Shown in pieces: positions 2,042-22,822 of a stretch of DNA of 36,265 nt (the first letter of the stretch is position 1; every line of letters begins with the position of its first letter). The stretch lies in contig JADBJK010000029.1 of assembly GCA_014874485.1 (NCBI GenBank), forward strand, positions 1 to 36,265, written 5' to 3'. Position numbers and translations under genes: made by a program. Source of the stretch: Chloroflexota bacterium. Lineage in GTDB: Bacteria; Chloroflexota; Anaerolineae; DTLA01. The notes beneath the pieces are model-generated. The model had not been told where the DNA came from. It did not search any database and was given only the letters and a program-made list of their open reading frames with translations.

Positions 2042-2271
2042 GTGGCATCTTCAATACAGAAGCCGTCTCAAATGGATAATCGTTTCGCATTGTGCTGGCA
2101 TGACCTATGAGATCAAGTATCTTGGGGCGATCAGCGGGCTATGGGAAATCTGCCGGGGTCTAACCGTTCATCCTCTCTGAAGTCGGTATTTTCGCAGGTT
2201 CAATTGGCTCTTCAAGACTTACAATGAGTCTGCTCGTCAAGGCTTAGAAATTGAAATTGGAATGCATGCAC

Positions 2272-2300
2272 TTGACAAACCGACAAATTCGTGGTATAAT
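2272..2300 (+). promoter_or_regulatory. Sigma-70 promoter for iclR and the downstream cluster
   Basis: TTGACA (2272-2277) and TATAAT (2295-2300) are perfect consensus boxes with a 17-bp spacer. The expected start near 2307 falls inside the palindrome at 2301-2317. The stretch 2042-2271 between the two divergent promoters holds no gene I can support. Confidence 0.8.
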
Positions 2301-2317
2301 ATTCCATGCTATAGAAT
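2301..2317. promoter_or_regulatory. Palindromic operator candidate at the iclR promoter
   Basis: ATTCCAT-GCT-ATAGAAT is a 17-bp imperfect palindrome directly after the -10 box, extendable to ATATTC/GAATAT (2299-2319). Its position is right for repression by autoregulation, which is common for IclR proteins. The half-sites recur at the divergent promoter. Confidence 0.5.
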
Positions 2318-2375
2318 ATCTCTCCGTATTTTGCAAAGCATGCCAGCGCCGCTCGCGCGTCATAAGGAGGGCAAG

Positions 2376-3203
2376 TTGGACTCTGAAGTTCGCTCTGTCA
2401 GTCGTGCTCTGGCTCTTTTGCGATGTTTCACCTACAACAACCCGGACCTCACCCTTGCTGAGCTGTCGGAGAAGTCGGGCCTCAGTAAGAGCACCGTACT
2501 GCGTCTCCTTCGCACCCTGGAGACACAGGGCTTCGTCATGGGCGATGTCTCCAGTGGGAAGTATCAACTCGGGTGGGCCTTGATTGAGCTTGGTACTATC
2601 GCCCTCCAGAATCTGGAGCTACACCGAGTCGCCCGTCCTCTGCTGGAGGTTCTGCGTGACCGCACGCAGGAAACGGTGAACCTTTCTGTCCTCAGTGCGG
2701 ATCAGGTGCTGTACATCGCGACACTGGATAGCCCGCAGCCTGTACGAATTGCTGCGCGACCGGGAAGGCGACTCCCCGTGCACTGTACAGCCACAGGGAG
2801 GGTATTTCTGGCCTTTGGATCCCAAGCCGATACCGAGCGTCTCCTACAGGGTGAACTGAAATCGTACACCCCTTATACTAAGACGGACCCCGAGGAATTG
2901 CGTCGCGCGATCCAGGAAACGCGGGAGCGTGGCTTTAGCCTATGCGAGCAGGAGTTTGAAGTGGGCATAATCGCAGTGGGCGCTCCGATTTGGGGGTTGA
3001 ATGGCCGGCTGCTGGGCGCTATCGGGGTGGCCGGGCCGTCCTACCGAATCCCGCTTGAGAAAGCCTTGAAGATGGGCGAGGCCGCTCGTGAGGTAGCATG
3101 TACGATTTCAAGGCAGTTGGGCGCGCCCTTGAGCCTCTGTGCGTATCCCGATCACGAGGAGACTGTCGGCGGACTCGGTTTCCGCGGATGGCTGATGTCA
3201 TAA
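2376..3203 (+). CDS. IclR-family transcriptional regulator
   Basis: The 275-residue protein has an N-terminal winged helix-turn-helix (about 20-60, LAELSEKSGLSKSTVLRLL) and a C-terminal IclR effector domain (about 85-250; GRRLPVHCTATGRVFLA and GVAGPSYR are typical). I chose the TTG at 2376 because AAGGAGG (2364-2370) sits five bases ahead of it. An in-frame ATG at 2340 has no such site. IclR proteins bind small acids, often aromatic or sugar-acid intermediates, and control the neighbouring catabolic operon and their own gene. Here the gene leads the dehydrogenase-AOR-AroA-like cluster and faces the LivK-type gene, so it is the likely local regulator of both. Confidence 0.93.
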   Translation: MDSEVRSVSRALALLRCFTYNNPDLTLAELSEKSGLSKSTVLRLLRTLETQGFVMGDVSSGKYQLGWALIELGTIALQNLELHRVARPLLEVLRDRTQETVNLSVLSADQVLYIATLDSPQPVRIAARPGRRLPVHCTATGRVFLAFGSQADTERLLQGELKSYTPYTKTDPEELRRAIQETRERGFSLCEQEFEVGIIAVGAPIWGLNGRLLGAIGVAGPSYRIPLEKALKMGEAAREVACTISRQLGAPLSLCAYPDHEETVGGLGFRGWLMS

Positions 3204-3379
3204 CCACCTGTGGCGGGGACTGGTCTAGAGGCGGCTTGAGGCCTGGTCCATGCGCACACCCCACGTGTGGCCCGTGGGCGGGATGCTATACGCGAGAATA
3301 GAAAAATGAACAGTTGCTCTGATCGGATAGGCCGCATGTTGTAGCGCGGCTACCCCAGATGTGGACAAAGGGAGGTAAC

Positions 3380-4429
3380 ATGAAAGCCGTAGTCAAACTT
3401 GCTCCCCAGCCTGGTAGCATCGCTGTCAAGGATGTACCAATCCCCACCATTGCCCCGGACGAGGTGCTAGTTGCGATCAAAGGCACGGGCATATGTGGCA
3501 CCGATGTTCTGCTCTACAACTGGACCTACCGCGGCCGCAAGCCCGTTCATCCCCCGATCGTTCTCGGTCATGAGGGTGCGGGGGTAGTAGTGGAAGTGGG
3601 GTCGCAAGTTCGGAACCTCCGGGTCGGCGATCACGTCGCGCTGGAAGCCTTGATAGGGTGTGGAAAGTGCTACTACTGCCGCCGGGGGCTCACATTCCTG
3701 TGCCCCGACTGGGAACACCTCGGCATTTCGTTCAATGGCACGTTTGCGGAATACACGGCGATCAAGGCCTCGGCTGTAAGGCCTGTACCCGACGGGCTCA
3801 AGTGGGAAGACCTGGCCTTCCTTGAGATCCTGGCCGTAGTGGCCCATACAATGGAACGAATTGCCGTGTCGCCGGGCGACACCGTGGCGATCCTCGGCCC
3901 CGGCCCTCTTGGGCTGTTTCACTTGCAGGCGGTGCGTGCAGCGGGTGCCGCGAAAACGATTGTGGTGGGTGTGACGGGGGATGAACATCGCCTGGCGGTA
4001 GCGCGCACTCTTGGGGCCACGGTTGTGCTGAAGGCCGACCAGGCAGACCCCGTTCAGGTAGTCCGGGATGAGACCCGTGGCGTAGGTGCCGATGTGGTTA
4101 TTGAAGCAGCCGGGGCGCCCGAGGCTGTGAGCCAGGCTTTTCGCATGGCGCGGGGTGCTGGCCAGGTCGTGCTGCTCGGGTTCACCAAGATGGCGGAATT
4201 CGTGCCCCTGGATGCTGTGCGGAGTTGTCTGAACGTCCAGTGTGTGCTCGGGGGTGTGGGTCGCCATTTTGAGCAAGCGCTGCGCTGGATTGAGAGCGGG
4301 CAGGTGCTCGGTTCAAGCCTAGTCACTCATCGCTTCCCCCTAGCACGCGCAGAAGAGGGATTCCAGGCGGCGATAAACCGTGAGGCGGTGAAGGTCTTCT
4401 TTGAGACTGAGCCTGACGAGGCGTTGTGA
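3380..4429 (+). CDS. Zinc-dependent medium-chain dehydrogenase
   Basis: The 349-residue protein is an MDR-family NAD(P)-dependent alcohol/polyol dehydrogenase, closest in look to threonine or sorbitol dehydrogenases. Catalytic zinc ligands are Cys39 (GICGTD), His64-Glu65 (GHEGAG) and probably Glu149. The structural zinc uses Cys94, 97, 100 and 108. The Rossmann motif GPGPLG is at 173-178. The ATG at 3380 follows GGGAGGT with good spacing. Its TGA shares a base with the ATG of the ferredoxin gene, so translation is probably coupled. In this cluster it may oxidise an alcohol to the aldehyde used by AOR, which is inference. The 176 bp between iclR and this gene hold no clear promoter. Confidence 0.93.
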   Translation: MKAVVKLAPQPGSIAVKDVPIPTIAPDEVLVAIKGTGICGTDVLLYNWTYRGRKPVHPPIVLGHEGAGVVVEVGSQVRNLRVGDHVALEALIGCGKCYYCRRGLTFLCPDWEHLGISFNGTFAEYTAIKASAVRPVPDGLKWEDLAFLEILAVVAHTMERIAVSPGDTVAILGPGPLGLFHLQAVRAAGAAKTIVVGVTGDEHRLAVARTLGATVVLKADQADPVQVVRDETRGVGADVVIEAAGAPEAVSQAFRMARGAGQVVLLGFTKMAEFVPLDAVRSCLNVQCVLGGVGRHFEQALRWIESGQVLGSSLVTHRFPLARAEEGFQAAINREAVKVFFETEPDEAL

Positions 4430-4785
4430 TGAGGGAACAGATTCTATTCTTCTCACCAAGTCAATGTTCTGGATGTGGCATTTGCGAGATGGTGTGTTCT
4501 CTGCAGAGTTCTCGGGGTTGTTCCCGCGAAGCGTCGTACATCCGCGTTCTACGACACCCTCGGTTGGGCACACCTGTTGTTGCTGTCCGCGCAGAATGCA
4601 GGAAGTGCAAGCGGTGCGTACAAGCCTGCACGCTAGAAGCGATCCGATTCGCAGAGGAGCCGGAGTGGGGCACGCTAATTCAGGATGGTTGGATTGCGTG
4701 TCCTGTGCTGGATCGCAATCTGTGTGCGGACGAGAAGGAGTTGTCACCATGTGGTACGGCTATGCAGGACAATATGCGATCGTAG
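4429..4785 (+). CDS. Small [4Fe-4S] ferredoxin-like protein upstream of AOR
   Basis: The protein is about 118 residues. It begins with a CSGCGICEMVC cluster motif and has a second Cys group (CRKCKRCVQAC), typical of a two-cluster ferredoxin domain like those next to AOR genes. Extra cysteines follow (about 85-105). ATG 4429 overlaps the dehydrogenase stop; a GTG one codon earlier is possible. The 3' end overlaps the AOR start by 37 bp, so the two are co-translated. It probably accepts electrons from the tungsten enzyme. The last 35 residues resemble nothing I know and may be constrained by the overlap. Confidence 0.85.
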   Translation: MREQILFFSPSQCSGCGICEMVCSLQSSRGCSREASYIRVLRHPRLGTPVVAVRAECRKCKRCVQACTLEAIRFAEEPEWGTLIQDGWIACPVLDRNLCADEKELSPCGTAMQDNMRS

Positions 4786-6638
4786 ACCTGACCACAGGCC
4801 AGGTGAGCAAGATCCCCCTCACCGAGGACATGGCGCGCAAGTTTGTGGGAGGCAGGGGATTCATTGTCAACTGGTTGTATGAGCGGGTAACACCCCGCAT
4901 GGACGCCTTTGCCCCAGAGATGCCGCTTATCTTCGCTGTTGGCCCCCTCACGGGGACTATCGCGCCTTCGTCCGGACGCTGGACGGTAGGCTGTAAGGCT
5001 CCGCAAACAGGCCTCATCACCATTGGGATCGGCGGGGGCGACTTTGGCGCTCATCTGAAGTGGGCCGGGTTTGACGCGGTAATCATCGTTGGACGGTCGC
5101 TACGCCCCGTTTACCTGATGATCTCGGACGGGAACATAGAAATCGTTTCGGCTGAGCATCTCTGGGGCAAGGACACGACGGAAGTGGAGGCTGCCATACG
5201 CGCCGAGCAGGAGAACTGGAACATACACGTTGCCGCTATCGGGCTCGCAGGAGAGAACCTGGCGCCAACCACAACAATCATCGCCGACCGCGCGCGTTCG
5301 GCCGGGCGCGGCGGAGCAGGCGCTGTGATGGGCAGCAAGAATCTGAAAGCGGTTGCCGTCTACGGAAGGAACGCCGTTCCTCTGTATGACGCGAAATCGG
5401 CGTTAGATGAAGCGGCGCGCATGACGCGCAAGCTCATGACGGAAGCGCATTTCTCCACGTATCTGGAGTGGGGAACTACCTATTTTCTGGATCGGTACAC
5501 GCAGGCGGGCGGGCTGATGTCATTCAACGCCCAGCGGGGCATTTTCCCCGACTGGCGCGAGATGGATGGGCGGGTTTACAAGGAAAAGCACTGGCGGGGG
5601 CGCTTGGCATGCTACGGGTGTCCGCTTCCGTGTTCAAGTTACTTCCAAGTTGAGAAGGGACTTCGCGGGGGAACATTTGGCGAAGCCACGTCCGCTTCCA
5701 CGCTCAAGGAGTTGGGAGCGCGGGTGGGTGTCAAGGATCTTCGGCACATCCTGGACTGCCATGTGGAGATTGACCGCTTGGGGCTGGACCTCATCTCTGC
5801 GCCGGCAACCATTGCCTTTGCAGTGGAAGCGTTCCAGAAGGGCATTCTCACCAAGGCGGCCACAGGGGGCTTGCCTCTGGAATTTGGGCGCGGGGATGTG
5901 GTGTTGGAATTGCTGCGCCGCATGGCGCGGCGCGAGGGCATTGGCGAGGACTTGGCACATGGCTCTCGGGCGTGTGCAGAGCGCTGGGGTAAGGGGAGCG
6001 ACTTGCTGCGCACCGACTCAAAGGGACTGGAACCGCCAGCCACAGATCCGCGCGCCTATCCAGCATGGGCGCTAGGTTATGCCACGTCTAGCCGCGGAGG
6101 CTGCCACATGCGTGCCTATTCGGTGTTTGAGTTCGGTGGTGTGGAGGAAGACCAGGCGGAACGCATGGGGGTTCCGATGTCCGTAAATGAGCGCCTGGAG
6201 TGGAGGGGCAAAGGGCGCGGGGTAGCTTTCTTTGAAGATCTGCGCTCCCTAGGCGACTCGCTAATCACTTGCCGTTTCGTCGCTCGGAACGCACTGGCCT
6301 TTCCCGAAGAGCAGGTAGGCATCCTCAATGCTGTTACTGGACTTGGGTTCACTGCCAAAGACCTCTACCTGGTTGGTGAGCGCATCACCAACCTTGAGCG
6401 TTTGTTCAACCTAAGGGAGGGGTTGCGCCCGGAGGACGACACTCTTCCGAAGCGGTTCTTGCAGGAGCCTCTACCCGACGGGCCTTCCGCGGGTTGCGTT
6501 GTGCCTTTGGAGCCCATGCTGGAAGAGTACTACACGGCTCGCTCGTGGGATAGGGGCACGGGTGAACCATCTGCGGACAAACTCCGCGAACTTGGGCTTA
6601 CCGAAGAATACAATGGCGAAGGAGAGACAAAGCCATGA
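4749..6638 (+). CDS. aor: Aldehyde ferredoxin oxidoreductase (tungsten enzyme)
   Basis: The 629-residue protein spans the AOR family (Pyrococcus AOR is 605). It oxidises aldehydes to carboxylates with a tungstobispterin and one [4Fe-4S] cluster, passing electrons to ferredoxin. The N-terminal domain has the FVGGRGF motif. The cluster ligands appear to be Cys288, 291, 295 (CYGCPLPC) and Cys508 (LITCRF); the DRLGLDLIS pterin-binding segment is present. The ATG at 4749 has AAGGAG at 4735-4740; the open frame extends upstream but reads across the ferredoxin gene. The stop overlaps the AroA-like start (ATGA). It makes an anaerobic or microaerophilic lifestyle likely. The substrate is unknown, but the operon suggests a cyclic or aromatic aldehyde. 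Confidence 0.95.
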   Translation: MWYGYAGQYAIVDLTTGQVSKIPLTEDMARKFVGGRGFIVNWLYERVTPRMDAFAPEMPLIFAVGPLTGTIAPSSGRWTVGCKAPQTGLITIGIGGGDFGAHLKWAGFDAVIIVGRSLRPVYLMISDGNIEIVSAEHLWGKDTTEVEAAIRAEQENWNIHVAAIGLAGENLAPTTTIIADRARSAGRGGAGAVMGSKNLKAVAVYGRNAVPLYDAKSALDEAARMTRKLMTEAHFSTYLEWGTTYFLDRYTQAGGLMSFNAQRGIFPDWREMDGRVYKEKHWRGRLACYGCPLPCSSYFQVEKGLRGGTFGEATSASTLKELGARVGVKDLRHILDCHVEIDRLGLDLISAPATIAFAVEAFQKGILTKAATGGLPLEFGRGDVVLELLRRMARREGIGEDLAHGSRACAERWGKGSDLLRTDSKGLEPPATDPRAYPAWALGYATSSRGGCHMRAYSVFEFGGVEEDQAERMGVPMSVNERLEWRGKGRGVAFFEDLRSLGDSLITCRFVARNALAFPEEQVGILNAVTGLGFTAKDLYLVGERITNLERLFNLREGLRPEDDTLPKRFLQEPLPDGPSAGCVVPLEPMLEEYYTARSWDRGTGEPSADKLRELGLTEEYNGEGETKP

Positions 6639-7924
6639 CAGATTTGCTGGTGCGTAAACTGACCAGTCCCCTGAATGCCGAACTCGTCGCTCCGCCGTGC
6701 AAGTACTACACTCACAGGGCTTTCATCTTGGGCTCATTGGCAGATGGTGAAACCACAGTTCTGGGCACATCCGATGCGGATGACAACATGTCCACCGTAA
6801 GGGCGATCTGCGCTCTTGGCGCGCGAGTGGAGAAGATTCAAGGCGGATACAAGGTGTTCGGCGGACCATACCAGACGCCTGATGACGTGATCAATGTGGG
6901 CAATTCGGGAACAACGATTCAGTTTATGATGGGGCTGGCATCCACCGCCCCTGGTACGACGGTGTTCACTGGCGATGCATCCATTCGGCGCAGGCCAGTG
7001 GGCCCATTGATTGACGCCCTCAACCGATGGGGCGTGCCGTGCTGGTCCACCAGGGGCAATGGACTGGCTCCGATCGTCGTGCAATCGCACCGTGGCCTGA
7101 AGCCCGTGGTTGAGACGAGCGGGTGGATTTCGCAGTGGGTCAGTGCCTTGCTACTTCTCGCGCCTTTTGCTGGGCGCGATGTAGAGGTGCGCGTCTTGGA
7201 CCGTGTGGATGCCCCAACCTATGTGCGTTCCACGATTTTTGCAATGGAAGTTTTCGGGGTGCGCGTCCATGAGTCGGATGACTTCTGCAGATTCTTCATT
7301 CCGTCGGGGCAGCGCTTCAGCCCTGCCACATTCGTCGTACCAGGGGATTTCGCTTTGGCTGCCTACGGGCTGGTGGCAGCGGCGCTGAGCGGGGGCCGTG
7401 TGGTCTATCACAATCTTGATGCCAACTCCATCCAAGCGGAGAAAGGAATCGTTCCGTTCCTGCAACAGATGGGCGCTGACTTGCGAGTGGATGCTGAGGC
7501 GAAGACCGTGGAATTGCGAGGAGGTGGGCGGCTAAGGGCGATTGAATGGGATGGCAATGATACTCCAGATGTGGTGCCCATCATGACGCTGGCGTGCGCG
7601 CTGGCCGAGGGGACGAGTACAATCTACAATATCGCGCAGCTGAAGGTGAAGGAGAGCGATCGCCTCTCCGAGATGCTTCAGCTGAACAAGATGGGTGCAA
7701 GGGTGGAGGCTCTGGATGACCGCCTGGTCATACATGGTGTGGACAAACTGGCTGGCGCAACACTGGATTCGGCATCCGATCATCGCCTGGCAATGACCTG
7801 GACGGTTGCGGGGAGCCTCGCCGAGGGTGAAACGGTCGTAAGGGATGTTGACGTTGCTGCTGTATCGTACCCCGCATTCCTGGACGACATGGAACGTTTG
7901 GGCATGCGCTTTGAAAGGAGGTGA
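6635..7924 (+). CDS. EPSP-synthase-family (AroA-like) protein with altered active site
   Basis: The 429-residue protein matches the two-domain EPSP synthase family, which transfers enolpyruvyl from PEP to shikimate-3-phosphate. By hand alignment to E. coli AroA these residues are kept: Lys22 (K23), Arg27 (R28), Arg124 (R120), Gln171 (Q167), Asp313 (D311), Lys340-Glu341 (K338-E339), Arg344 (R342) and Arg386 (R383). These are changed: Ser23>Tyr24, Arg100>Gln96, Ser169>Ile165, Lys411>Val409. The serines normally hold the substrate 3-phosphate, and Lys411 contacts PEP. The catalytic framework thus persists while the acceptor pocket looks remodelled. It overlaps AOR by 4 bp and no other shikimate gene is beside it except the AroC-like one. 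A specialised enolpyruvyl transferase is my inference. Confidence 0.9.
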   Translation: MTDLLVRKLTSPLNAELVAPPCKYYTHRAFILGSLADGETTVLGTSDADDNMSTVRAICALGARVEKIQGGYKVFGGPYQTPDDVINVGNSGTTIQFMMGLASTAPGTTVFTGDASIRRRPVGPLIDALNRWGVPCWSTRGNGLAPIVVQSHRGLKPVVETSGWISQWVSALLLLAPFAGRDVEVRVLDRVDAPTYVRSTIFAMEVFGVRVHESDDFCRFFIPSGQRFSPATFVVPGDFALAAYGLVAAALSGGRVVYHNLDANSIQAEKGIVPFLQQMGADLRVDAEAKTVELRGGGRLRAIEWDGNDTPDVVPIMTLACALAEGTSTIYNIAQLKVKESDRLSEMLQLNKMGARVEALDDRLVIHGVDKLAGATLDSASDHRLAMTWTVAGSLAEGETVVRDVDVAAVSYPAFLDDMERLGMRFERR

Positions 7925-8007
7925 TGGTTTCCGCACAGAAGGCGCAGGTAATTACTGGACCGGAAGCCAATCGCGATCAGAAGGTTGAGTCTATGGGAGG
8001 AGTTGAG

Positions 8008-10083
8008 ATGCCAGGACGTGAAAAACTGTGGAAGTTGGTTGCCCTTCTTGTCGTGGTAACCCTCGCTGTGCCGCTTGCGGGGTGCGGTGCCAAGGCCACC
8101 CCGACAGCGCCCCCACCCTACCAGGCAAAGCCTACTCCGACGCCTGAGCCACCTGCACCTCCAACGGCATCCCCCGAGCCGACCAAACCTGCGGTAGAGA
8201 CGGTGAAGATCGCCTACGTTCCAATCCTTGCGTTCGCTGCGGCATATGCGGCAGACGGGCAGGGATACTTCAAGGAGTATGGGCTGGATGTGCAGTTTGA
8301 GTCGGTGAAGTCAGGAACGGAGGCGGTCGCGTTCCTGGCGGAGGGGCAGGTGGACGTCGGGGCGATAGCGGTCGTGGCGTCCACTTGGAACGCCTTTGCG
8401 AAAGGGCTCGACCTGCGGATAGTGGCTCCTGCGGCGCTGAAGTTGATGAAGGATGATCCGAGTGCCGTGCTGCTGGTTCGGAAGGACTTGTGGGAGAGCG
8501 GTGCGGTGAAGACGGCGGCCGATCTGAAGGGTCGCACGGTGGGGGTAGCCGGAGGTCCTGGGAGCGGAGGCGAGTATCTGGTAGCGAAGTGCCTGGAGCC
8601 TGTGGGGTTGACGATCTTTGACGTGAACCTGCAGAACATCGGCAATGCGGACATGGCTGCGGCGATGGAGGCCAAGGCGGTGGATGCGGTGTTGACGGGT
8701 TCTCCGTACTCCACGGCGATCATAGAGGCAGGCACGGGTGTGCCGTTGGTGAAGGACATGACGCCTGGGGCGATGACGATGGTGTATGTGTACTCCGGCA
8801 AGTTCATGAAGGAGCGTCCGGAGGTCGCGAAGCGGTTCATGCTGGCGCTGATGAAGGGGGCTCGGTCGCTGCAGGGTGAGGGGTTCCTGAGCGATGCGAA
8901 TGTTGCCGCGTACATGAAGTACATGAAGACGACGGAGGAGACGATACGGAAGACGCCGCCTGGGCTGTACGATCCGAACCTGACGGTAAAGATAGAGGAT
9001 CTGGCCGACATACAGAACACCCACATGAAGAATGGGCGCTTGGAGTACAGCACTCCGTTGCCGTTGGACAACCTGGTGGACCTCTCCTGGCAGCAGTACG
9101 CGCTCAAGGAACTGGGCCGGTGGGAGCCGCCCCCGCTGAGCAAGGTAGAGACGGTGAAGATTGCCTACGTTCCGATCCTTGCGTTCGCTGCGGCATATGC
9201 GGCAGACGGGCAGGGATACTTCAAGGAGTATGGGCTGGATGTGCAGTTTGAGTCGGTGAAGTCAGGAACGGAGGCGGTCGCGTTCCTGGCGGAGGGGCAG
9301 GTGGACGTCGGGGCGATAGCGGTCGTGGCGTCCACTTGGAACGCCTTTGCGAAAGGGCTCGACCTGCGGATAGTGGCTCCTGCGGCGCTGAAGTTGATGA
9401 AGGATGATCCGAGTGCCGTGCTGCTGGTTCGGAAGGACTTGTGGGAGAGCGGTGCGGTGAAGACGGCGGCCGATCTGAAGGGTCGCACGGTGGGGGTAGC
9501 CGGAGGTCCTGGGAGCGGAGGCGAGTATCTGGTAGCGAAGTGCCTGGAGCCTGTGGGGTTGACGATCTTTGACGTGAACCTGCAGAACATCGGCAATGCG
9601 GACATGGCTGCGGCGATGGAGGCCAAGGCGGTGGATGCGGTGTTGACGGGTTCTCCGTACTCCACGGCGATCATAGAGGCAGGCACGGGTGTGCCGTTGG
9701 TGAAGGACATGACGCCTGGGGCGATGACGATGGTGTATGTGTACTCCGGCAAGTTCATGAAGGAGCGTCCGGAGGTCGCGAAGCGGTTCATGCTGGCGCT
9801 GATGAAGGGGGCTCGGTCGCTGCAGGGTGAGGGGTTCCTGAGCGATGCGAATGTTGCCGCGTACATGAAGTACATGAAGACGACGGAGGAGACGATACGG
9901 AAGACGCCGCCTGGGCTGTACGATCCGAACCTGACGGTAAAGATAGAGGATCTGGCCGACATACAGAACACCCACATGAAGAATGGGCGCTTGGAGTACA
10001 GCACTCCGTTGCCGTTGGACAACCTGGTGGACCTCTCCTGGCAGCAGTACGCGCTCATGATCCTGGGCCCCTACGGTAAGTAG
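8008..10083 (+). CDS. SsuA/NMT1-type binding lipoprotein with tandem duplicated domain
   Basis: The 691-residue protein has a lipoprotein signal (PLAGC, Cys26) and a Pro/Thr linker, followed by two copies of a SsuA/THI5-like binding domain (about 304 residues each) that start VETVKIAYVP. A short linker (KELGRWEPPPLSK) joins them. The family binds sulfonates, nitrate, thiamine precursors or aromatic acids for an ABC importer. Single-domain members are about 320-350 residues, so this is double length. The underlying DNA copies are almost identical (see the repeat entries). ATG 8008 has GGGAGGAG at 7995-8002; upstream in-frame starts lack a properly spaced site. The ATPase and permease genes follow. 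Two receptor domains could raise local ligand capture. Confidence 0.93.
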   Translation: MPGREKLWKLVALLVVVTLAVPLAGCGAKATPTAPPPYQAKPTPTPEPPAPPTASPEPTKPAVETVKIAYVPILAFAAAYAADGQGYFKEYGLDVQFESVKSGTEAVAFLAEGQVDVGAIAVVASTWNAFAKGLDLRIVAPAALKLMKDDPSAVLLVRKDLWESGAVKTAADLKGRTVGVAGGPGSGGEYLVAKCLEPVGLTIFDVNLQNIGNADMAAAMEAKAVDAVLTGSPYSTAIIEAGTGVPLVKDMTPGAMTMVYVYSGKFMKERPEVAKRFMLALMKGARSLQGEGFLSDANVAAYMKYMKTTEETIRKTPPGLYDPNLTVKIEDLADIQNTHMKNGRLEYSTPLPLDNLVDLSWQQYALKELGRWEPPPLSKVETVKIAYVPILAFAAAYAADGQGYFKEYGLDVQFESVKSGTEAVAFLAEGQVDVGAIAVVASTWNAFAKGLDLRIVAPAALKLMKDDPSAVLLVRKDLWESGAVKTAADLKGRTVGVAGGPGSGGEYLVAKCLEPVGLTIFDVNLQNIGNADMAAAMEAKAVDAVLTGSPYSTAIIEAGTGVPLVKDMTPGAMTMVYVYSGKFMKERPEVAKRFMLALMKGARSLQGEGFLSDANVAAYMKYMKTTEETIRKTPPGLYDPNLTVKIEDLADIQNTHMKNGRLEYSTPLPLDNLVDLSWQQYALMILGPYGK
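8193..9106 (+). repeat. Tandem in-gene duplication, copy 1 (914 bp)
   Basis: This segment recurs at an offset of exactly 951 bp (317 codons), so the reading frame is kept. I found only two differences from copy 2, both within the first 40 bases (cgcc/tgcc and ccaatc/ccgatc). Silent sites elsewhere agree, which implies very recent duplication or ongoing gene conversion. Confidence 0.95.
9144..10057 (+). repeat. Tandem in-gene duplication, copy 2 (914 bp)
   Basis: This is the second copy of the binding-domain segment. It is separated from copy 1 by 37 bp (9107-9143) that encode the Pro-rich linker. After 10057 the two copies diverge, and this one ends the protein with LMILGPYGK. Confidence 0.95.
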
Positions 10084-10156: not shown

Positions 10157-10948
10157 ATGAGCAAGAAGATAACGGCATATAAGGTAACCAAGATATTCCC
10201 TTCCCCTCGTGGGCAAGTTGTCGCTGTGAAGGATTTCTCTTTGGAGGTGGAAGACGGCGAGTTTGTCTGCATCGTTGGACCATCAGGCTGCGGCAAGTCT
10301 ACGTTTCTACGGATACTTGCCGGGCTGGTTCCTGCCACTTGTGGCACTTGCGCCATCCATCGGAGCCCCGATGCGCCGCCGGGAAAGCCCCTCAACAGCG
10401 TCGTGTTCCAGGAGTATGCGATTTTCCCTTGGAAGACCGTCAGGGACAACGTGGCCTTTGGGCTGCAGATGCGAGGAGTGCCCAAGAAAGAGCGGTTTCG
10501 GATCGCCGCGGATTGGATTCAGCGCGTGGGCCTGAAGGACTTCGCAGACTGCTATCCCCACGAACTCTCGGGCGGCATGAAGCAACGGGTCAGCATTGCG
10601 CGTGCGTTTGCGAATGATCCCGAGGTGCTGCTGATGGATGAACCTCTGGCTGCCCTTGACGCCCAGACTCGGGCCGTGATGCAGGAAGAACTCCTGCGCA
10701 TCTGGGAGTCGGACAGGAAAACGGTCGTGTACATCACCCACAGCATAGATGAGGCGGTGCTCCTAGGCGACAGAGTGATCCTCATGACTGCGCGCCCTGG
10801 CACGAACAAGGCGTCATTCACGGTGCCATTCCCGCGGCCGCGTGACCTCAGCCTGTCTAGTACGGCTGAGTTTGCACAACTCACCTACGGGATATGGAAT
10901 TTGCTCCAGGAAGAGGTGCACAAAACCATGGAGGGAAGAGCGAGATGA
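10157..10948 (+). CDS. ABC importer ATP-binding protein (SsuB/TauB type)
   Basis: The 263-residue protein is a full nucleotide-binding subunit: Walker A GPSGCGKST (41-49), Q-loop VVFQEYAIFPW, signature LSGGMKQR, Walker B LLMDEPLAALD and switch His in YITHSIDEA. It powers import of the ligand captured by the duplicated receptor. The last codons overlap the permease ATG (ATGA at 10945-10948), indicating translational coupling. Family and gene order (receptor, ATPase, permease) match the nitrate/sulfonate/taurine group, but the family also moves thiamine precursors and aromatic acids, so the substrate stays open. Confidence 0.95.
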   Translation: MSKKITAYKVTKIFPSPRGQVVAVKDFSLEVEDGEFVCIVGPSGCGKSTFLRILAGLVPATCGTCAIHRSPDAPPGKPLNSVVFQEYAIFPWKTVRDNVAFGLQMRGVPKKERFRIAADWIQRVGLKDFADCYPHELSGGMKQRVSIARAFANDPEVLLMDEPLAALDAQTRAVMQEELLRIWESDRKTVVYITHSIDEAVLLGDRVILMTARPGTNKASFTVPFPRPRDLSLSSTAEFAQLTYGIWNLLQEEVHKTMEGRAR

Positions 10949-12039
10949 GCGGCCAACGCACGGTCTCCCTGCGATTTCCCCGCCCCGCGCCTGCCTGGCT
11001 GAAAAGCCTTCTGATGCTAGTCGGGCTTGTCATCTTCAATGGCGTGCTATTCGTTTTCGGAGGTTGGAAGAAGAATTGGATCGTGGCAATAACCGCCAAC
11101 TTCGTCGGAGTGGCGCTGGTTTTGGAGTGGATGACCGCGTATGTCTCAGCCCGTAGGTTGTCTGCGTATGAGCGGGCTCTGTCTATCGGTTTTCCCATCG
11201 CGATGCTTGTAGCGTGGGAACTGTTGGTGCGGGGCGGGGTTTTGAGCGCCACTTGGTTCCCGCCCCCTACCAAGGTCGCCAGGGCCCTGTGGGACCTTGC
11301 AACTGAGTACGACCGGTTCAACAAGACAAGCCTGCTGGGGCGGCCGTGGCTGATCCCCCAGATATACTCGCAACAAGGATGGGCGGGGGTCAAAGCGCTG
11401 TTCGCCGAAAGTCATCTGTGGGCGACGCTGATGCGGATATTTGCGGGATTCATCGCGGGATCCATTCCGGGTCTTATCATAGGGATCGCCATGGGCATCA
11501 GCCGCACCATGCGCGTGATGCTTGATCCGGTTATCTCTGCCCTGTACGTGATCCCAAAGATCACAATCCTTCCGTTAATGATGCTCATTTTCACGCCTTT
11601 CGGGGAGACCTACAAGATCGTTACGGTTGCCATATCTGTTTTCTTCGTGGTCCTGATCAACACCATGGCCGGAGTGAAGGGCGTTGAACCAATCCTGGTG
11701 GAGGCAGGCAAGAACTATGGGGCGACCGGCGTGCGGCTGTTCTGGCACGTGATTATCCCGTCGGCATTGCCGGTCATTTTCGCGGGATTGCGGCTCGCCC
11801 TAGGGACCGCGCTGATCGTCATTGTGGCCATTGAGTTTGTCCGTGCGAAGTCTGGCGTGGGGTACATAACTTGGTATTACTGGGAAGTGCTGAATCCGCC
11901 CAAAATGTACGCTGGGCTGATCGTCATCATGCTGCTGGGCGTCGTGCTCACCTACGGGCTTATGAGCGTGGAGGGTTTGCTGATGCCCTGGCAGAGACGG
12001 CGCGAGCAGCGGCAAGTGATTGAGGTTCCAGAGGGGTGA
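10945..12039 (+). CDS. ABC importer permease (SsuC type, N-terminally extended)
   Basis: The 364-residue protein is longer than the usual 250-280 residues of SsuC-type permeases. The extra N-terminal part holds two hydrophobic stretches (about 19-37 and 45-60) before the conserved BPD transport domain (about 160-345). The coupling EAA loop is seen at EAGKNYGATGVRLFWHV. The ATG at 10945 overlaps the ATPase stop and is preceded by GGGAAGAG. It forms the membrane channel of the importer encoded by the two previous genes. Confidence 0.93.
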   Translation: MSGQRTVSLRFPRPAPAWLKSLLMLVGLVIFNGVLFVFGGWKKNWIVAITANFVGVALVLEWMTAYVSARRLSAYERALSIGFPIAMLVAWELLVRGGVLSATWFPPPTKVARALWDLATEYDRFNKTSLLGRPWLIPQIYSQQGWAGVKALFAESHLWATLMRIFAGFIAGSIPGLIIGIAMGISRTMRVMLDPVISALYVIPKITILPLMMLIFTPFGETYKIVTVAISVFFVVLINTMAGVKGVEPILVEAGKNYGATGVRLFWHVIIPSALPVIFAGLRLALGTALIVIVAIEFVRAKSGVGYITWYYWEVLNPPKMYAGLIVIMLLGVVLTYGLMSVEGLLMPWQRRREQRQVIEVPEG

Positions 12040-12084: not shown

Positions 12085-13191
12085 ATGCTGGGTAACAGTT
12101 TCGGACGAATGTTTAGACTGACCACTGCCGGCGAGGCGTACGGGCCAGCACTTGTGGCCATCTTGGATGGGGTGCCTTGTGGGTTGCCTCTGACTGAGGC
12201 CGACATCCAGCCTGACTTGGATAGGCGGAGGCCGCATCAAAGCCCCATCACGTCACCACGAAAGGAGACGGATCAGGTCAAGATCGTGGCGGGTGTGCTT
12301 GACGGATACACCACTGGAGCGCCGTTGGCTCTTATCATCTACAACGTGGACACCCCGCGCGAGCACTTTGAGCAGTATCGTGCGGTAAGCCAACTGATGC
12401 TGCCCGGCCACGCACACTATACGTACCATGTCAAATACGGAAAGTATCGCGACTGGGTTAGCGCGGGTCGTGCAAACGGTCGGGAGACCGCTGCCCGGGT
12501 TGCAGCCGGTGCCGTCGCAAAGAAACTCCTCGGCAGGAAGGGCATCCGCGTGGTGGCCTACACAAAAGAACTGGCTGGCGTTGTCTGCCCAGAGATGGAT
12601 TTTGAGGATATTGTGGCCAATGTGGAGAGTAACATGGCTCGCTGTCCGGACCAGAAGGCCGCCGAAGAGATGATTGCGCGGACGATGGAGGCCAAGTCAG
12701 AAGGGGATACGGTAGGGGGCGTCGTTGAGGTGATCGCCCGAGGTGTCCCGGCGGGCGTTGGAGAGCCTGTGTTTGACAAACTGAGCGCGGTCATCGCCCA
12801 TGGGCTGATGAGCATCGGTGCGGTCAAGGGTGTGGAGATTGGCGGGGGTTTTGCCATGACTCGCAAGCGTGGCAGCGAAATCCATGACATCCCCTATGTT
12901 GAGAACGGCAAGGTGCGTTTCCGGACGAACTTCGCAGGGGGGCTTCTGGGTGGCATAACGAACGGAGAGGATATCGTGGCTCGCTGCGCCGTGAAGCCCA
13001 CTCCAACGATGCGCAGACCTCAGCCGACCATCAACATGCTCACCCTGGAGGAAACCACGATTGCTGGGCAGACGCGGTACGACGTTACCATTGTGCCGCG
13101 AGTCGTTCCAGTTGCTGAGGCCATGATGGCGCTAGCGCTCGTGGATAGCCTGATGATGTATCGGGGTTGGCAGTCCTTCGTTGAAGAGTAG
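12085..13191 (+). CDS. Chorismate-synthase-family (AroC-like) protein with altered motifs
   Basis: The 368-residue protein aligns along the whole chorismate synthase family, FMN enzymes that eliminate phosphate from EPSP. Framework motifs remain: GNSFG, DLDRRRP, ETAARVAAGA, GVPAGVGEPVFDKL, MSIGAVKGVEIG and AGGLLGGITNG. Key motifs differ. GESHG is GEAYG, so the catalytic His (His17 in the Neurospora enzyme) is Tyr19. RPGHAD is LPGHAH, keeping His109. GGGRSSARET is SAGRANGRET. GRHDPC is TRYDVT, keeping Arg and Asp. The start has AGGAGGGG seven bases upstream. With the AroA-like gene it probably forms a specialised, non-housekeeping pair; loss of chorismate synthase activity is inferred, not shown. 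Confidence 0.9.
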   Translation: MLGNSFGRMFRLTTAGEAYGPALVAILDGVPCGLPLTEADIQPDLDRRRPHQSPITSPRKETDQVKIVAGVLDGYTTGAPLALIIYNVDTPREHFEQYRAVSQLMLPGHAHYTYHVKYGKYRDWVSAGRANGRETAARVAAGAVAKKLLGRKGIRVVAYTKELAGVVCPEMDFEDIVANVESNMARCPDQKAAEEMIARTMEAKSEGDTVGGVVEVIARGVPAGVGEPVFDKLSAVIAHGLMSIGAVKGVEIGGGFAMTRKRGSEIHDIPYVENGKVRFRTNFAGGLLGGITNGEDIVARCAVKPTPTMRRPQPTINMLTLEETTIAGQTRYDVTIVPRVVPVAEAMMALALVDSLMMYRGWQSFVEE

Positions 13192-13277: not shown

Positions 13278-14027
13278 ATGAAAGACCTCGCAGGACAAGT
13301 TGCCATCGTTACAGGAGGAGGTAGAGGCATTGGACGTGCCATAGCGCTTCGGCTGGCGCAGGATGGAGCAGATGTGGTTGTGGCAGACGTGAATGTCGCT
13401 GCTGCCGAAAGCGTCGCAGCAGAGGCCCGTGGCCTGGGCCGCAAGGCCATCGCCTGCCATGTGGATGTATCCCGGAAATCCGATGTGCAGGCGATGGTTG
13501 AGAGGATTCTGCGCGACTTTGGACATGTAGATATCTTGGTAAACAACGCAGGCATTCTGGGGCCCACTGCCCCTGTGGCCGAGATACCCGAGGAGGAGTG
13601 GGACCGCACCCTGGACATCCACTTGAAGGGGACTTTTCTCTGTTGCCAGGCTGTAATCCCTCACATGATCCGCCAACGGTATGGCAAGATCGTGAGCATG
13701 GCATCTGTAGCGGGGAAGGAGGGGAATCCCAACCAGGCTGCCTACTCGGTGGCCAAAGCGGGTATCATTTGTTTCACGAAGTCGCTGGCGAAAGAGGTGG
13801 CGACCATGGGTATCACTGTGAACTGCGTTTCGCCCACAGTGGTTGAGACAGATTTGATAAAGGCGCTGACCCCTGAGCAGCTCGCCCCGCTGTTGGCAAA
13901 GATCCCCATGGCGCGTATGGGCAAGCCCGAAGAAGTAGCCGCACTCGTGCGGTTCCTCGTGTCTGACGAAGCGGATTTCATCACGGGGCAGTGTTACGAT
14001 CTGTCCGGCGGGCGATCGGTGTACTAG
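13278..14027 (+). CDS. Short-chain dehydrogenase/reductase (FabG-like)
   Basis: The 249-residue protein is a classical SDR: cofactor motif TGGGRGIG (about 13-20), NNAG, catalytic Ser near SMASVAG and the YSVAK Tyr/Lys pair. An acidic residue after the second strand (VADVNV) favours NAD(H). ATG 13278 follows AAGGAGA. It lies 86 bp after the AroC-like gene in the same direction and is probably its last operon partner, reducing or oxidising a ring hydroxyl of the pathway intermediate. That role is inference; SDR substrates cannot be read from sequence. Confidence 0.92.
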   Translation: MKDLAGQVAIVTGGGRGIGRAIALRLAQDGADVVVADVNVAAAESVAAEARGLGRKAIACHVDVSRKSDVQAMVERILRDFGHVDILVNNAGILGPTAPVAEIPEEEWDRTLDIHLKGTFLCCQAVIPHMIRQRYGKIVSMASVAGKEGNPNQAAYSVAKAGIICFTKSLAKEVATMGITVNCVSPTVVETDLIKALTPEQLAPLLAKIPMARMGKPEEVAALVRFLVSDEADFITGQCYDLSGGRSVY

Positions 14028-14906: not shown

Positions 14907-15108
14907 AGTGGTGATAGCGTTGTCCGTCGCAGGGGAAGTCGCAGATGATGCGCGTGGCAGTCCTCTCTGGACTGGCCGTTGTCCCTTGCGACCGTGCCAC
15001 CTCCACCCCTGCTGAAGACAGAGAACTGAGGCAGGTTTTCCAGATGCAGAAAATAGGCGCATCAGATAGGTCTATGGTTGCAGATTGCAGGTTCAAGGAG
15101 GGTGTGCT

Positions 15109-17694
15109 TTGGAGGCAGAACGCATTCTGTTAGACGCGCTAGCCGGTTTGTGGCATGACATCGGCAAGTTTGCTCAGCGGTCGGGTGAGGGCACGCACGA
15201 ACTCTGGGATCAGGAAGCGGAGCGCGACCTAGGCTATCGGCATGCTCTCGCCAGCGACGACTTTGTGGGCCGGCATGTGCCCAGACAGTGGCAGGCGCAA
15301 CTGGCCGGCGTACGATACCATCACCGTCCGGCAAGCGCGCGCTCCATCAGCGACGATGCCTACCGGCAAGCGTGCCTGGTGCAGGTGGCAGACTGGCTAT
15401 CCAGCGAGGAACGCGAGGCAAGCACAGAGGCGGGCGAGGCGAGGTTGCGTTCACCCTTGAGTCGCCTTGCAGGGTATGAGGTCCCTTGGTACTTCCGGCT
15501 TGCACCCTTATCAGGTCGCACCGAAGATCTCTTTCCCGAGTTGCTGACCGAGAGCCAAGGAGCGCCAGACCGGGCGTACCGTGCCTTATGGGAGCAGTTT
15601 GAGCACGCAAGTTCCTTGCTTCGCACGGATGGCGTGCACAAGATGGACCTGCGCGCATTCACAGAGACCGCATACTTCCTCCTGCAAGAGTACGCATGGT
15701 GCGTGCCCTCTGCATACTATGGCCAAGTGCCGGATGTGAGCCTGTTTGACCACGCTCGGACTACGGCGGCTATCGCGGCGTGCCTGACCGCGGATGATCG
15801 CGATGCGGAGTGGATAAACCGTCTCAGTGAGGCGCTGCTCGGTTCCGGCGGCGACATACTGGACGAGCCTGTGGCAGTGTTGGTTGGAGGTGACCTCACG
15901 GGATTACAGCGATTCCTTTACACGATCGCTTCAGAAAACGCCGCCAAGTCCTTGCGTGGGCGTTCGGTCTACCTGCAGTTGCTCAGCGAGGTTGTAGCGG
16001 AGTACGTCTTGGATAGACTGGGCCTCCCGCTGACGAATCTCCTCTACGTCGGGGGCGGTACCTTCTATTTGCTGGTTCAGACCACTTGGCAAGGCGCCGC
16101 CTCTGATCAGAGACTGAGGGCCATTCAGAGGGAGGTCGCCGAGAAACTCGTAAAGGCACATGGCGGTGCTCTGGGTCTCGCGCTGGCGTTTACGCCGATC
16201 ACCAGCAGAGAGTTCGCGAAAGAACGATTCCACGAGGCCTGGGGTCGGCTTCACCAAAAGATTCGCCGGGAGAAGGAGTTTCTGCTCGGCAGTCTGGACG
16301 CCACAGACCTAGCCAGGCTCGTCGGGAGCGGCATGGGGATGGGGGGCGAGAACGGCTCCTGCGAGGTTTGCGGAGAGGAGACGCCGGATAAGGCCACGGG
16401 ATCGGTTTGCTCCCTGTGCCAGTCTCTGGAGAAACTCGGCATGCAAGTGGCCCGCGCGAACTATTTGCTGCTGGCCGAGGTCAACGACGCTTCTGAACAG
16501 CACGTTACTGGCTCCTCCTGGCACACTGTAATGAGGACGTTTGGGCGCAGTGTGCACTTCTTGGAGAACTTTGAAGAAATCAGAGACGTTGCACGGGATG
16601 TTCTTGACCGTGCGGCGCGAATCCGTCTGCTATGGCTTTCCAAGCGCGAGGAGGACTTGGCCGACCGGGTGAGAAGCCTGGGAATCGGGGTACCGATCTC
16701 CCTGGGTTACCGTCCTTTTGCCCAGTTGGTACCATGGCGCGACGCGGACAGGCGACAGATAAGCACTTTTGATGACCTCGCCAAGCAGGCGAACGGCATA
16801 GCACGGTGGGGTGTTCTCAGGATGGACGTGGACGATCTTGGGAGGCTGATGCGCGAAGGTTTCCGCAGCGGGGATGCGCAGAGCACATCCGGTTACCTGA
16901 CCATCTCCAGGTTGGCCTCCCTGTCATTTGCCCTGCGAGTGTTCTTTGACAAGTGCGTGCCGTGGGCCGCCATGCGACCCGATTCAGACGCGGCGAGCGA
17001 CGTGCGGCCAGGGGCACAACACCCCGCTCGCCTGTATCTGCAGTATGCGGGAGGGGACGACCTGTTCATGGTTGGCGCGTGGGATGCACTCCCGACCGCG
17101 GCGGCGAAGATACAATCCGCGTTTCGTGAGTTCGCTTGTCGGAATCCAGCGGTAACCATCTCTGCCGGCATCGCCCTGTTCCCGGCCAAGTTCCCGATTT
17201 ACCAGGCGGCGCGGGTTGCGCACGAGGCTCTAGATTCCGCCAAGGCCCGTGCCTCAATTGTTGCGTTCCCAGGAGACAGTGTAACCCACGGGAAGAATGC
17301 CATCCATTTCCTCGGAGTATCGCTGGACTGGGATGCTTTCCGGAGCGTCCGCGAGCGCGCCGATCGCCTTGCGCAGTGGGTGGACGATGGACTGGTCCGC
17401 AAGAGCCTGATTCAGCGCGTGCTCCGGATTCTGTACGAGTGGCAGTCGGGCAGACAGCGTAACATCCGACAGGGGCGCTTGCGCCAACGCCAGCGGTACA
17501 TCGGCCCGTGGGTATGGCATGCGACCTATCAGTTCGGCCGCGCGGCTTCGGAGATAGACGTGCCCGAAATCAGGCAAGAAGTGCGCCAGTGGGCTGGCGA
17601 GTTGCTCAATGACGAGCGCAACATTGTGCGCCTTGGCCTGGCGGCCCGTTGGGCTGAACTTCTCACTCGGAAGCGAGATGACAAGCAGCAGTAG
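15109..17694 (+). CDS. csm1: Cas10/Csm1, large subunit of type III-A CRISPR complex
   Basis: The protein is about 861 residues. An N-terminal HD domain (LWHDIGKFAQ; DNase in the family) comes first, then a zinc-binding segment with paired CxxC motifs (from Cys418) and two palm domains. The second palm has YAGGDDLF with GGDD at 648-651, the site that makes cyclic oligoadenylates when target RNA is bound. TTG 15109 is chosen because AAGGAGGG (15095-15102) sits six bases before it; an in-frame TTG at 15085 has none. Both HD and GGDD are intact, so ssDNA cleavage and second-messenger synthesis are expected. The CARF-HEPN gene downstream is the likely receptor of that signal. Confidence 0.96.
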   Translation: MEAERILLDALAGLWHDIGKFAQRSGEGTHELWDQEAERDLGYRHALASDDFVGRHVPRQWQAQLAGVRYHHRPASARSISDDAYRQACLVQVADWLSSEEREASTEAGEARLRSPLSRLAGYEVPWYFRLAPLSGRTEDLFPELLTESQGAPDRAYRALWEQFEHASSLLRTDGVHKMDLRAFTETAYFLLQEYAWCVPSAYYGQVPDVSLFDHARTTAAIAACLTADDRDAEWINRLSEALLGSGGDILDEPVAVLVGGDLTGLQRFLYTIASENAAKSLRGRSVYLQLLSEVVAEYVLDRLGLPLTNLLYVGGGTFYLLVQTTWQGAASDQRLRAIQREVAEKLVKAHGGALGLALAFTPITSREFAKERFHEAWGRLHQKIRREKEFLLGSLDATDLARLVGSGMGMGGENGSCEVCGEETPDKATGSVCSLCQSLEKLGMQVARANYLLLAEVNDASEQHVTGSSWHTVMRTFGRSVHFLENFEEIRDVARDVLDRAARIRLLWLSKREEDLADRVRSLGIGVPISLGYRPFAQLVPWRDADRRQISTFDDLAKQANGIARWGVLRMDVDDLGRLMREGFRSGDAQSTSGYLTISRLASLSFALRVFFDKCVPWAAMRPDSDAASDVRPGAQHPARLYLQYAGGDDLFMVGAWDALPTAAAKIQSAFREFACRNPAVTISAGIALFPAKFPIYQAARVAHEALDSAKARASIVAFPGDSVTHGKNAIHFLGVSLDWDAFRSVRERADRLAQWVDDGLVRKSLIQRVLRILYEWQSGRQRNIRQGRLRQRQRYIGPWVWHATYQFGRAASEIDVPEIRQEVRQWAGELLNDERNIVRLGLAARWAELLTRKRDDKQQ

Positions 17695-17735
17695 TGTTGC
17701 TCCCAATACTTGGCAAATGAGGAGGTACGAAGGTC

Positions 17736-18173
17736 ATGAACGGTTCAAGACAGGGAGGAAAATCCAGCATTGACGTATCCAGCATCATAGCCCAGGACAA
17801 CCCAGAGAAACTTGTGGAGATGGCCCAGCAGGTTGTGGGGGATGGGGCTCAAGTGAGCACGAGCCAGATACGCAATGTGTTCGGCCCCGTGCGGCGCATC
17901 GCTCTGGAGTGGCCTGAGACCGTGCAGAGCGATGACGAGCGCAAACGGGCCGAGCGCGCCTATCGTCAGGTTGTGCTTCTGAGGCCCAAATTGCGGTACC
18001 TCGCAGCGCGTGACCAGAAGCTCACCGATCTTGCCGACCTGTTGGACAAATGCATTGCGGAGATTCAGAAAGGTGGGAACCTTGCTGAGAGGCGGCTTCG
18101 GTTTGGCAGGTTCGTGGACTTCTTTGAGGCGATTCTCGCCTACCACACTGAGAAGGCAAGAGGGGGCAGGTAG
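17736..18173 (+). CDS. csm2: Csm2, small subunit of the Csm complex
   Basis: The 145-residue, mostly helical protein has family-typical segments QIRNVFGPVRRI, VVLLRPKLRYLAAR and FFEAILAYHTEKA. Csm2 forms the inner filament of the type III-A interference complex and contacts crRNA-target duplex. An N-terminal tail of about 25 residues precedes the core. It lies 41 bp after cas10 with GAGGAGGT upstream, and two bases separate its stop from the csm3 start. Its presence decides subtype III-A (Csm) over III-B (Cmr). Confidence 0.93.
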   Translation: MNGSRQGGKSSIDVSSIIAQDNPEKLVEMAQQVVGDGAQVSTSQIRNVFGPVRRIALEWPETVQSDDERKRAERAYRQVVLLRPKLRYLAARDQKLTDLADLLDKCIAEIQKGGNLAERRLRFGRFVDFFEAILAYHTEKARGGR

Positions 18174-18175
18174 AA

Positions 18176-18952
18176 ATGAACAATGCAAAGCAGGTGAAAC
18201 TCTACGGACGCGTCATCTTGACGGGCACAATCCGCCTTCGGACCGGACTGCACATCGGCACATCAAAGGACACGCTGGAGATCGGCGGCGTGGACGGCCC
18301 CGTCATCCGCAACCCGGTAGACAGGCTCCCCTACATTCCGGGGTCTTCGCTCAAGGGCAAGATGCGCTCCCTTTGGGAAAAGGTCAATGGCGCCGAGCAG
18401 AACAAATCAATTGGCAAAGATGTAACCATCCACGTCTGCTCCAAGCCCGACTGCCGCGTCTGCTCCATATACGGGGCTCCCGGAGAGGAGGCTACTGCTG
18501 CCCCGACGCGGCTGATTGTGCGCGACGTGCCGATGAACCCCGACAGCGTCCCAAGCACGGTAGTAGACTACACCGAGGTCAAGTGGGAAGCAGCGATAGA
18601 CCGGGTAACCAGCGCCGCATCGCCACGTCAGATGGAGCGTGTACCGGCCGGCGCAACCTTCGGCCCGATGGAGATGGTGTTTTCCATCTACATGGAGGAA
18701 GACGTACAGCGGTTCACCGATGTCCTGCGGGCCCTCCAACTGGTGGAAGACGATTTCCTAGGGGGTCAAGGGAGCCGAGGCTCCGGCAAGGTGTCCTTTG
18801 AGAATCTCGCACTTACGGTAAAGGTGGGAGCAGAATACACGGAGCACACCGATGACCGGTTCCGGGGCAAGTCTCTGAAAGATCTCGTAGCCCTGCGGGG
18901 CGAACTTGTGGAGTGGGTTAGGGGTCTGGTGGTGCCGAGTGGAGGTGCGTGA
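18176..18952 (+). CDS. csm3: Csm3, backbone RAMP protein and target-RNA nuclease
   Basis: The 258-residue RAMP protein forms the crRNA-binding backbone and cuts target RNA every six bases. The catalytic Asp of the family (Asp33 in Streptococcus thermophilus Csm3) aligns with Asp40 in IGGVDGPVIRNP. PYIPGSSLKGKMRSL is the conserved loop. A Cys-rich insert (CSKPDCRVCSIYG) probably binds zinc, as in other Csm3 proteins. The glycine-rich C-terminal loop is GGQGSRGSGKV. The stop overlaps the csm4 start. Confidence 0.95.
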   Translation: MNNAKQVKLYGRVILTGTIRLRTGLHIGTSKDTLEIGGVDGPVIRNPVDRLPYIPGSSLKGKMRSLWEKVNGAEQNKSIGKDVTIHVCSKPDCRVCSIYGAPGEEATAAPTRLIVRDVPMNPDSVPSTVVDYTEVKWEAAIDRVTSAASPRQMERVPAGATFGPMEMVFSIYMEEDVQRFTDVLRALQLVEDDFLGGQGSRGSGKVSFENLALTVKVGAEYTEHTDDRFRGKSLKDLVALRGELVEWVRGLVVPSGGA

Positions 18953-20052: not shown

Positions 20053-20061
20053 GAGGAACGC

Positions 20062-21168: not shown

Positions 21169-21206
21169 CCGTGCCGCGCGCCCCAATCCCACACCCGGAG
21201 GATACC

Positions 21207-22439: not shown

Positions 22440-22822
22440 TCGTCATCAACTTCTCCCACCCGCTGACCGAGGCCCAGCGGGCGCAGATCGCCCAACTCGC
22501 CGGCCAGCCTGTGGAGCGCGTCATTGAGTGCATGCCCCACTTTGACCACGACGCGGCCTTCGCCGAGCAGGCGTGCGCCCTCGTGGACGGCGTGGGCCTG
22601 TCGGCGGCCGAGTGGCAGACCCTGCCCATCCTGCTGGTACCCCCTTCCTACAGCCTCATCGCGGCGGTGGTGCTGGCCGAGTTGCACGGGCGCATGGGGC
22701 GCTTCCCGCCGGTGGTGCGCATGCGGCCCGTGGACAACGGCCTGGCCCCGACCCTCTACGAGGTGGCCGAGATCATCCCCCTGCAGGCGGTGCGCGACGC
22801 GGCGCGGCGGAGGCGGCTCTGA
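22436..22822 (+). CDS. csx15: Csx15, small type III accessory protein
   Basis: The 128-residue protein begins MIVINFSHPLT and has VGLSAAEWQTLPILLV, ELHGRMGRFPPVVRM and EVAEIIPLQAVRD, which I recognise as the Csx15 pattern. It is thought to be a CARF-related protein acting on the cyclic oligoadenylate signal, possibly by binding or degrading it; I am unsure how firmly this is established. Its ATG overlaps the CARF-HEPN stop (ATGA), and its stop overlaps cas6. Tight coupling to the nuclease suits a signal buffer or off-switch. Confidence 0.85.
   Translation: MIVINFSHPLTEAQRAQIAQLAGQPVERVIECMPHFDHDAAFAEQACALVDGVGLSAAEWQTLPILLVPPSYSLIAAVVLAELHGRMGRFPPVVRMRPVDNGLAPTLYEVAEIIPLQAVRDAARRRRL

Follow-up and report, generated by a model that had tools for sequence, protein, structure and literature searches.

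The window, by which we mean the whole 36,265-nt stretch of Chloroflexota DNA analysed (contig JADBJK010000029.1), carries a gene cluster that lies entirely on one strand (+) and in which, from the second gene onward, the gaps do not exceed 86 nt and several genes overlap. The cluster is headed by an IclR-family regulator (2262..3203; PF01614 and PF09339), followed by a zinc-type (MDR) dehydrogenase (3359..4429; PF08240 and PF00107) and a tungsten-type aldehyde:ferredoxin oxidoreductase (4401..6638 as the longest ORF, with homology from about 4773; PF02730 and PF01314), whose nearest solved structure is the aldehyde ferredoxin oxidoreductase 1aor (430 bits). Overlapping the latter by 4 nt is aroA' (6635..7924), encoding a variant EPSP synthase, AroA', and behind it stand the three components of an ABC importer: an NMT1/SsuA-type substrate-binding lipoprotein (7921..10083; PF09084 in two stretches), an ATPase (10157..10948; PF00005) and a permease (10894..12039; PF00528). 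Next come aroC' (12085..13191), encoding a variant chorismate synthase, AroC', and, after an 86-nt gap, a short-chain dehydrogenase (SDR; 13278..14027; PF13561). The binding-protein ORF consists of two almost identical copies in tandem (300-nt repeats at 99% identity, spaced 951 nt), the product of either a duplication of recent date or an artefact of assembly. Elsewhere in the window, a type III-A CRISPR-Cas locus (15085-24685 and 25095-27394 onward) comprises Cas10, Csm2-Csm5, a Csx1/Csm6-like protein, Cas6 and Cas1; an array of 34 repeats comes after these genes.

The preliminary description of this locus, which presented the gene at 12085-13191 as a chorismate-synthase homologue devoid of the GESHG histidine, had the reading frame and all four motif readings right. 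The ORF is intact (368 aa), and family homology spans its full length in profile searches (PF01264, 393 bits; TIGR00033, 405 bits against a curated cut-off of 212). For a weak AlphaFold model (built from four sequences, mean pLDDT 56), chorismate synthases were the only Foldseek matches at E <0.001, which is no more than supportive of a common fold. AroC' shares with chorismate synthase (AroC; EC 4.2.3.5) its full-length homology, the FMN-side His and the catalytic Asp; it differs in the GESHG position, in A128G (E. coli numbering), in its importer operon, and in a host lacking the upstream pathway and the users of chorismate. At the motif level, GEAYG (12130..12144; residues 16-20) places Tyr19 where E. 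coli has H19, LPGHAH (12400..12417; residues 106-111; RPGHAD elsewhere) retains the FMN-side His, SAGRANGRET (12460..12489; residues 126-135) carries an Ala-to-Gly change common to all four variants described below, and TRYDVT (13072..13089; residues 330-335) keeps the Arg and the catalytic Asp, with the intervening His replaced by Tyr in the window and by Arg in the three relatives.

Alignment with 53 non-variant AroCs (E. coli and 52 Chloroflexota sequences from two clades) separates the replacements that define the variants from those peculiar to the window. The GESHG histidine is His in 53/53 non-variant enzymes and Tyr in 4/4 variants, the SARET alanine is Ala in 53/53 and Gly in 4/4, and A341 is Ala in 51 of the 53 and Val in every variant, whereas S18, G51, R103, D108, R121 and S127 (E. 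coli numbers), present in all 53, are altered in the window protein only. The relatives accordingly read GESYG, RPGHAD, GAGRSSGRET and TRRDP, and the exact GEAYG form occurs in the window protein alone. The near-invariance that had been claimed for these sites thus stands for the GESHG His and the SARET Ala and fails for the His of GRHDPC; we rejected that residue as a diagnostic, since the canonical AroCs of this bacterial class read ERSD. The FMN-N1 His (GHA) and the active-site Asp (RxD) are retained in all four variants; both are needed for the normal rate of AroC, their mutants losing 20-fold and 300-600-fold (PMC3509576), and their retention suggests that AroC' probably still carries out an FMN-dependent elimination. 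A conserved His near the EPSP phosphate has been proposed to donate a proton to the leaving phosphate (PMC12697075); this third residue is Tyr in AroC'. The GR arginine retained in AroC' appears, in our own alignment, to correspond to fungal R129, which contacts the phosphate (PMC11633415), so the phosphate end of the site has not been wholly erased.

A corresponding pattern is found in AroA' (429 aa; PF00275, 296 bits; TIGR01356, 355 bits against a curated cut-off of 287). On the E. coli structure, S23, S169 and S197 presumably contact the acceptor shikimate 3-phosphate, S169 and S197 through its phosphate. All four variants replace these residues and two others (S23 by Tyr, R100 by Gln or His, S169 by Ile, S197 by Ala or Glu, S244 by Ala), whereas among non-variant EPSP synthases position 23 is Ser in 36/37, position 169 Ser or Thr in 36/37, and position 197 Ser in 17 of the 18 aligned there. 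The PEP and catalytic residues K22, R124, D313, K340, E341, R344, H385 and R386 are all retained (4/4), as is R27; K411 is Val, at a position that also varies in the comparison set. In EPSP synthase, R124 and D313 are catalytic and lie near the PEP site (PMC8694188), and K22, R124 and K411 bind PEP or glyphosate (PMC3411725). AroA' therefore resembles the canonical enzyme (AroA; EC 2.5.1.19) in K22, R124, D313, E341, R344 and R386 and departs from it in S23, R100, S169 and S197 and in genomes, those of the host and of one relative (G040), where no shikimate kinase was detected; its donor side is preserved and its acceptor side altered. In both proteins, residues attributed to the 3-phosphate end have been lost and the core catalytic ones remain, which would fit a non-phosphorylated or otherwise different substrate. 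Of the altered reaction or substrate envisaged in the preliminary description, the substrate half is compatible with these residues, and a changed flavin chemistry is disfavoured by the retained FMN-N1 His and Asp.

A contig scan recovered three more Chloroflexi MAGs with the variant EPSP synthase, namely VGOB01000098.1 (genome G040), JAMDCU010000179.1 (G291) and JAJYOU010000021.1 (G741), and in each a GESYG-type AroC lies beside AroA', followed by an NMT1-type binding protein, ATPase and permease. The AroC'-AroA'-binding protein-ATPase-permease set is hence common to four MAGs, and the Tyr-form AroC co-occurs with a variant AroA in every case (4/4 genomes). The window's ATPase and permease are 67-71% and 56-58% identical to those of the relatives, respectively. 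The importers resemble NMT1/SsuA/TauA-type systems in having all three components in every cluster, but score below the curated cut-offs for taurine and sulfonate importers, from which the tandem duplication of the window's binding protein also sets it apart. A profile of the variant EPSP synthases gives 793-841 bits within the AroA' family (793 for the window) against at most 238 bits in 396 genomes of the class and at most 275 bits for canonical EPSP synthases in 400 genomes of the phylum; AroC' scores 722-812 bits against at most 437 bits. In plasmid searches, the best matches reached 48% identity for AroC' and 33% for AroA', with no variant-like pair (the His position was not read in these matches), a viral scan returned nothing, and literature searches found no report of such an AroC/AroA variant.

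Beyond the shared core, the clusters differ in content. MDR dehydrogenase genes also occur in the clusters of G040 and G741 (the latter 36% identical to the window's), and that of G741 includes an IclR gene. In G040, one contig ends with the MDR dehydrogenase, a citryl-CoA-lyase-like gene and the start of a CoA-acylating aldehyde dehydrogenase (ALDH), and another opens with the rest of the ALDH, followed by AroC', AroA', the importer and a type II dehydroquinase (AroQ), from which we infer that the two adjoin. The order in G291 is acylating ALDH, citryl-CoA-lyase-like gene, AroQ, AroC', AroA' and importer, while G741 carries AroC', AroA' and the importer at one place and the IclR, citryl-CoA-lyase-like, ALDH, AroQ and MDR dehydrogenase genes at another. 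AroQ, the citryl-CoA-lyase-like gene and the SauS-like acylating ALDH are thus linked to the pair, or present in the same genome, in all three relatives, and the AroQ proteins keep catalytic-looking motifs. The window cluster lacks all three, so the pathway is not uniform; by analogy, its tungsten enzyme may fill the aldehyde-oxidising role of the relatives' ALDH. In a search of plasmid neighbourhoods, a citryl-CoA lyase of Azoarcus had genes for shikimate dehydrogenase and dehydroquinase as neighbours, lending support to a hydroaromatic theme, although the surroundings of other plasmid-borne acylating ALDH and citryl-CoA lyase genes belonged to different pathways.

In the host genome (G000), the only AroQ is not linked to the cluster; it lies close to a glycyl radical enzyme. 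In the host genus, this type II dehydroquinase adjoins a glycyl radical enzyme of the PFL2-3 subfamily both in G000 (C91; L149:4799-9451) and in its congener G001 (C11; L150:9283-14114), followed in both by a radical SAM activase, recognised by Pfam in G000 and by a near-identical ORF start in G001; the dehydroquinase/glycyl radical pair possibly represents a radical step, so far undescribed, that acts on a ring acid of related kind.

Phylogenetically, the four AroC' proteins form one clade (100/100 as a group), separate from the clade of 28 AroCs of the class's own type (100/100), and their nearest non-variant relatives are poorly supported (67/35). Distribution is patchy inside families, the variant pair occurring in 2 of the 20 genomes of G040's order. 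aroC' is under purifying selection, with dN 0.10 against dS 1.9 between G040 and G291 (dS being saturated for most other pairs). These values and the conservation of the operon argue strongly against chance as well as against decay.

G000 (96% complete; a MAG in 122 contigs with 3% contamination) has one AroC in all, that of the window, and neither of its congeners (G001 and G002; 96 and 98% complete) has any. AroB, AroK, AroE, TrpE and PheA were found in none of G000, G001, G002 and G040 with a joined E. coli query that gave clear matches in two class controls, and no Chorismate_bind protein was found in G000; these absences rest on targeted searches, outside which lie DAHP synthase, type I dehydroquinase, AroH-type chorismate mutase and chorismate lyase. 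The second EPSP-synthase-family protein of G000 (C74) is just 27% identical to canonical EPSP synthase and is taken to be a putative MurA. A role for chorismate in futalosine-type menaquinone synthesis was considered and rejected, as G000 has no MqnA, though this absence says little alone because the class controls also lack MqnA. G291 (70% complete) holds, of the remaining shikimate pathway, only AroQ and a divergent AroE-like gene, so that the recognisable remainder of the pathway is missing in three of the four Tyr-form genomes (G000, G040 and G291). In G291, a divergent shikimate dehydrogenase homologue (C84; L095:757-3234; 26% identical to E. coli AroE) adjoins a citrate-synthase-like gene. 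AroK-AroB and MenF-MenD are present in G741, and searches of its 1.9-Mb assembly detected neither a second AroC nor a second EPSP synthase, which makes a chorismate role conceivable there; to judge from its gene content, the G741 pair may make chorismate. In this genome, a single 1052-aa ORF (C18; L093:6217-9375) joins shikimate kinase and dehydroquinate synthase to an AAA-type ATPase region at the N-terminus.

These observations define the main alternative, in which AroC' is a normal chorismate synthase that tolerates the His-to-Tyr change, works with an equally normal EPSP synthase and depends on imported shikimate or shikimate 3-phosphate. In its favour, and against repurposing, both proteins exceed the equivalog cut-offs set for true AroC and AroA, and G741 retains upstream and downstream steps. 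Moreover, exactly one AroC is present in each of the four carriers and no canonical aroC accompanies it, which goes halfway towards what the preliminary description had named as contradicting it, namely that such forms are the sole, functional chorismate synthases of their genomes. However, shikimate kinase, TrpE, PheA, Chorismate_bind and MqnA were not found in G000, two congeners live without any AroC, the acceptor-side residues of AroA have changed in concert, and the distribution within families is patchy; we regard this explanation as unlikely, if the most serious competitor.

The reading that we favour, with somewhat better than even confidence, is that AroA' and AroC' are a neofunctionalised pair within an accessory operon that is tied to uptake and handles a ring acid resembling shikimate or quinate, rather than part of general aromatic biosynthesis. 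Its most confident part is that the pair has been repurposed and does not carry out regular chorismate synthesis in this host. The operon's pathway is probably catabolic and its acid probably without a 3-phosphate, as the gene families and altered residues suggest. In the proposed sequence of events, the NMT1-type importer, by virtue of its linkage, would take up the ring acid, and the MDR dehydrogenase, the SDR and, in the relatives, the type II dehydroquinase would convert it to oxidised or dehydrated ring intermediates. AroA', whose PEP site is kept while the phosphate- and carboxylate-side residues are changed, would then move the enolpyruvyl group from PEP to an acceptor without a 3-phosphate, and AroC' would catalyse an FMNH2-dependent 1,4-elimination through the usual Asp and FMN-side His, with a non-phosphate leaving group and with Tyr standing where the leaving-group His was. 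An aldehyde would be oxidised by the tungsten enzyme in the window or by the CoA-acylating dehydrogenase in the relatives, where the citryl-CoA-lyase-like enzyme could then split the thioester, yielding acetyl-CoA together with a keto acid. Quinate and citrate are both tertiary alpha-hydroxy acids with flanking CH2 groups, a likeness that would make ring opening, acylation and a cut of the citryl-CoA-lyase type chemically reasonable. A still more specific version, which we advance as a speculative and rather improbable proposal, is a phosphate-free counterpart of the shikimate tail serving uptake-linked breakdown of hydroaromatic acids, in which AroA' would charge an unphosphorylated ring acid with enolpyruvyl from PEP, and AroC', with reduced FMN, would drive out a group other than phosphate, perhaps the enolpyruvyl, to yield a diene for later oxidation and cleavage.

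A PEP-spending step is unusual in catabolism and speaks against the catabolic reading; together with the patchy spread of the cluster and the fact that the typical outcome of 1,4-elimination is a diene, it would suit a biosynthetic pathway to a specialised metabolite or cofactor, again with an altered acceptor. The importer, the IclR regulator, the CoA-acylating ALDH and the citryl-CoA-lyase-like gene nevertheless look catabolic, and the cluster shows no recognisable tailoring, ligase or efflux genes, which leaves the biosynthetic route improbable. Mis-binning of the contig, whereby the genome-level absences would not be those of the true host, draws on the fragmentation and contamination of the MAG and on the congeners without the genes, but is very improbable given that G040 independently has the variant pair without AroB, AroK, AroE, TrpE or PheA. 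Finally, a decaying remnant or pseudo-enzyme left by loss of the shikimate pathway, as the several altered invariant positions of the window protein and the absent upstream pathway might suggest, is strongly disfavoured and hardly credible in view of the conserved operon, the full-length ORFs, the low dN relative to dS, the same Tyr with the same partners in four divergent genomes, and a variant clade that does not descend from the class's own AroC.

As a rule, chorismate synthase is regarded as a family with one function, and its presence is taken as a marker of aromatic biosynthesis; we know of no member with another biological reaction, so that a phosphate-free role would be the first. The AroA'/AroC' pair is real and conserved, and the placement of altered tail enzymes beside an uptake system suggests recruitment for a different, probably phosphate-free molecule. 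Such a pair in genomes without the shikimate pathway would mislead annotation and metabolic models, while AroC' would offer a natural variant for probing the role of the GESHG histidine and the ability of FMN-dependent 1,4-elimination to proceed when the leaving group is not phosphate, and the operon may mark an undescribed route for the uptake and breakdown of quinate- and shikimate-like acids.
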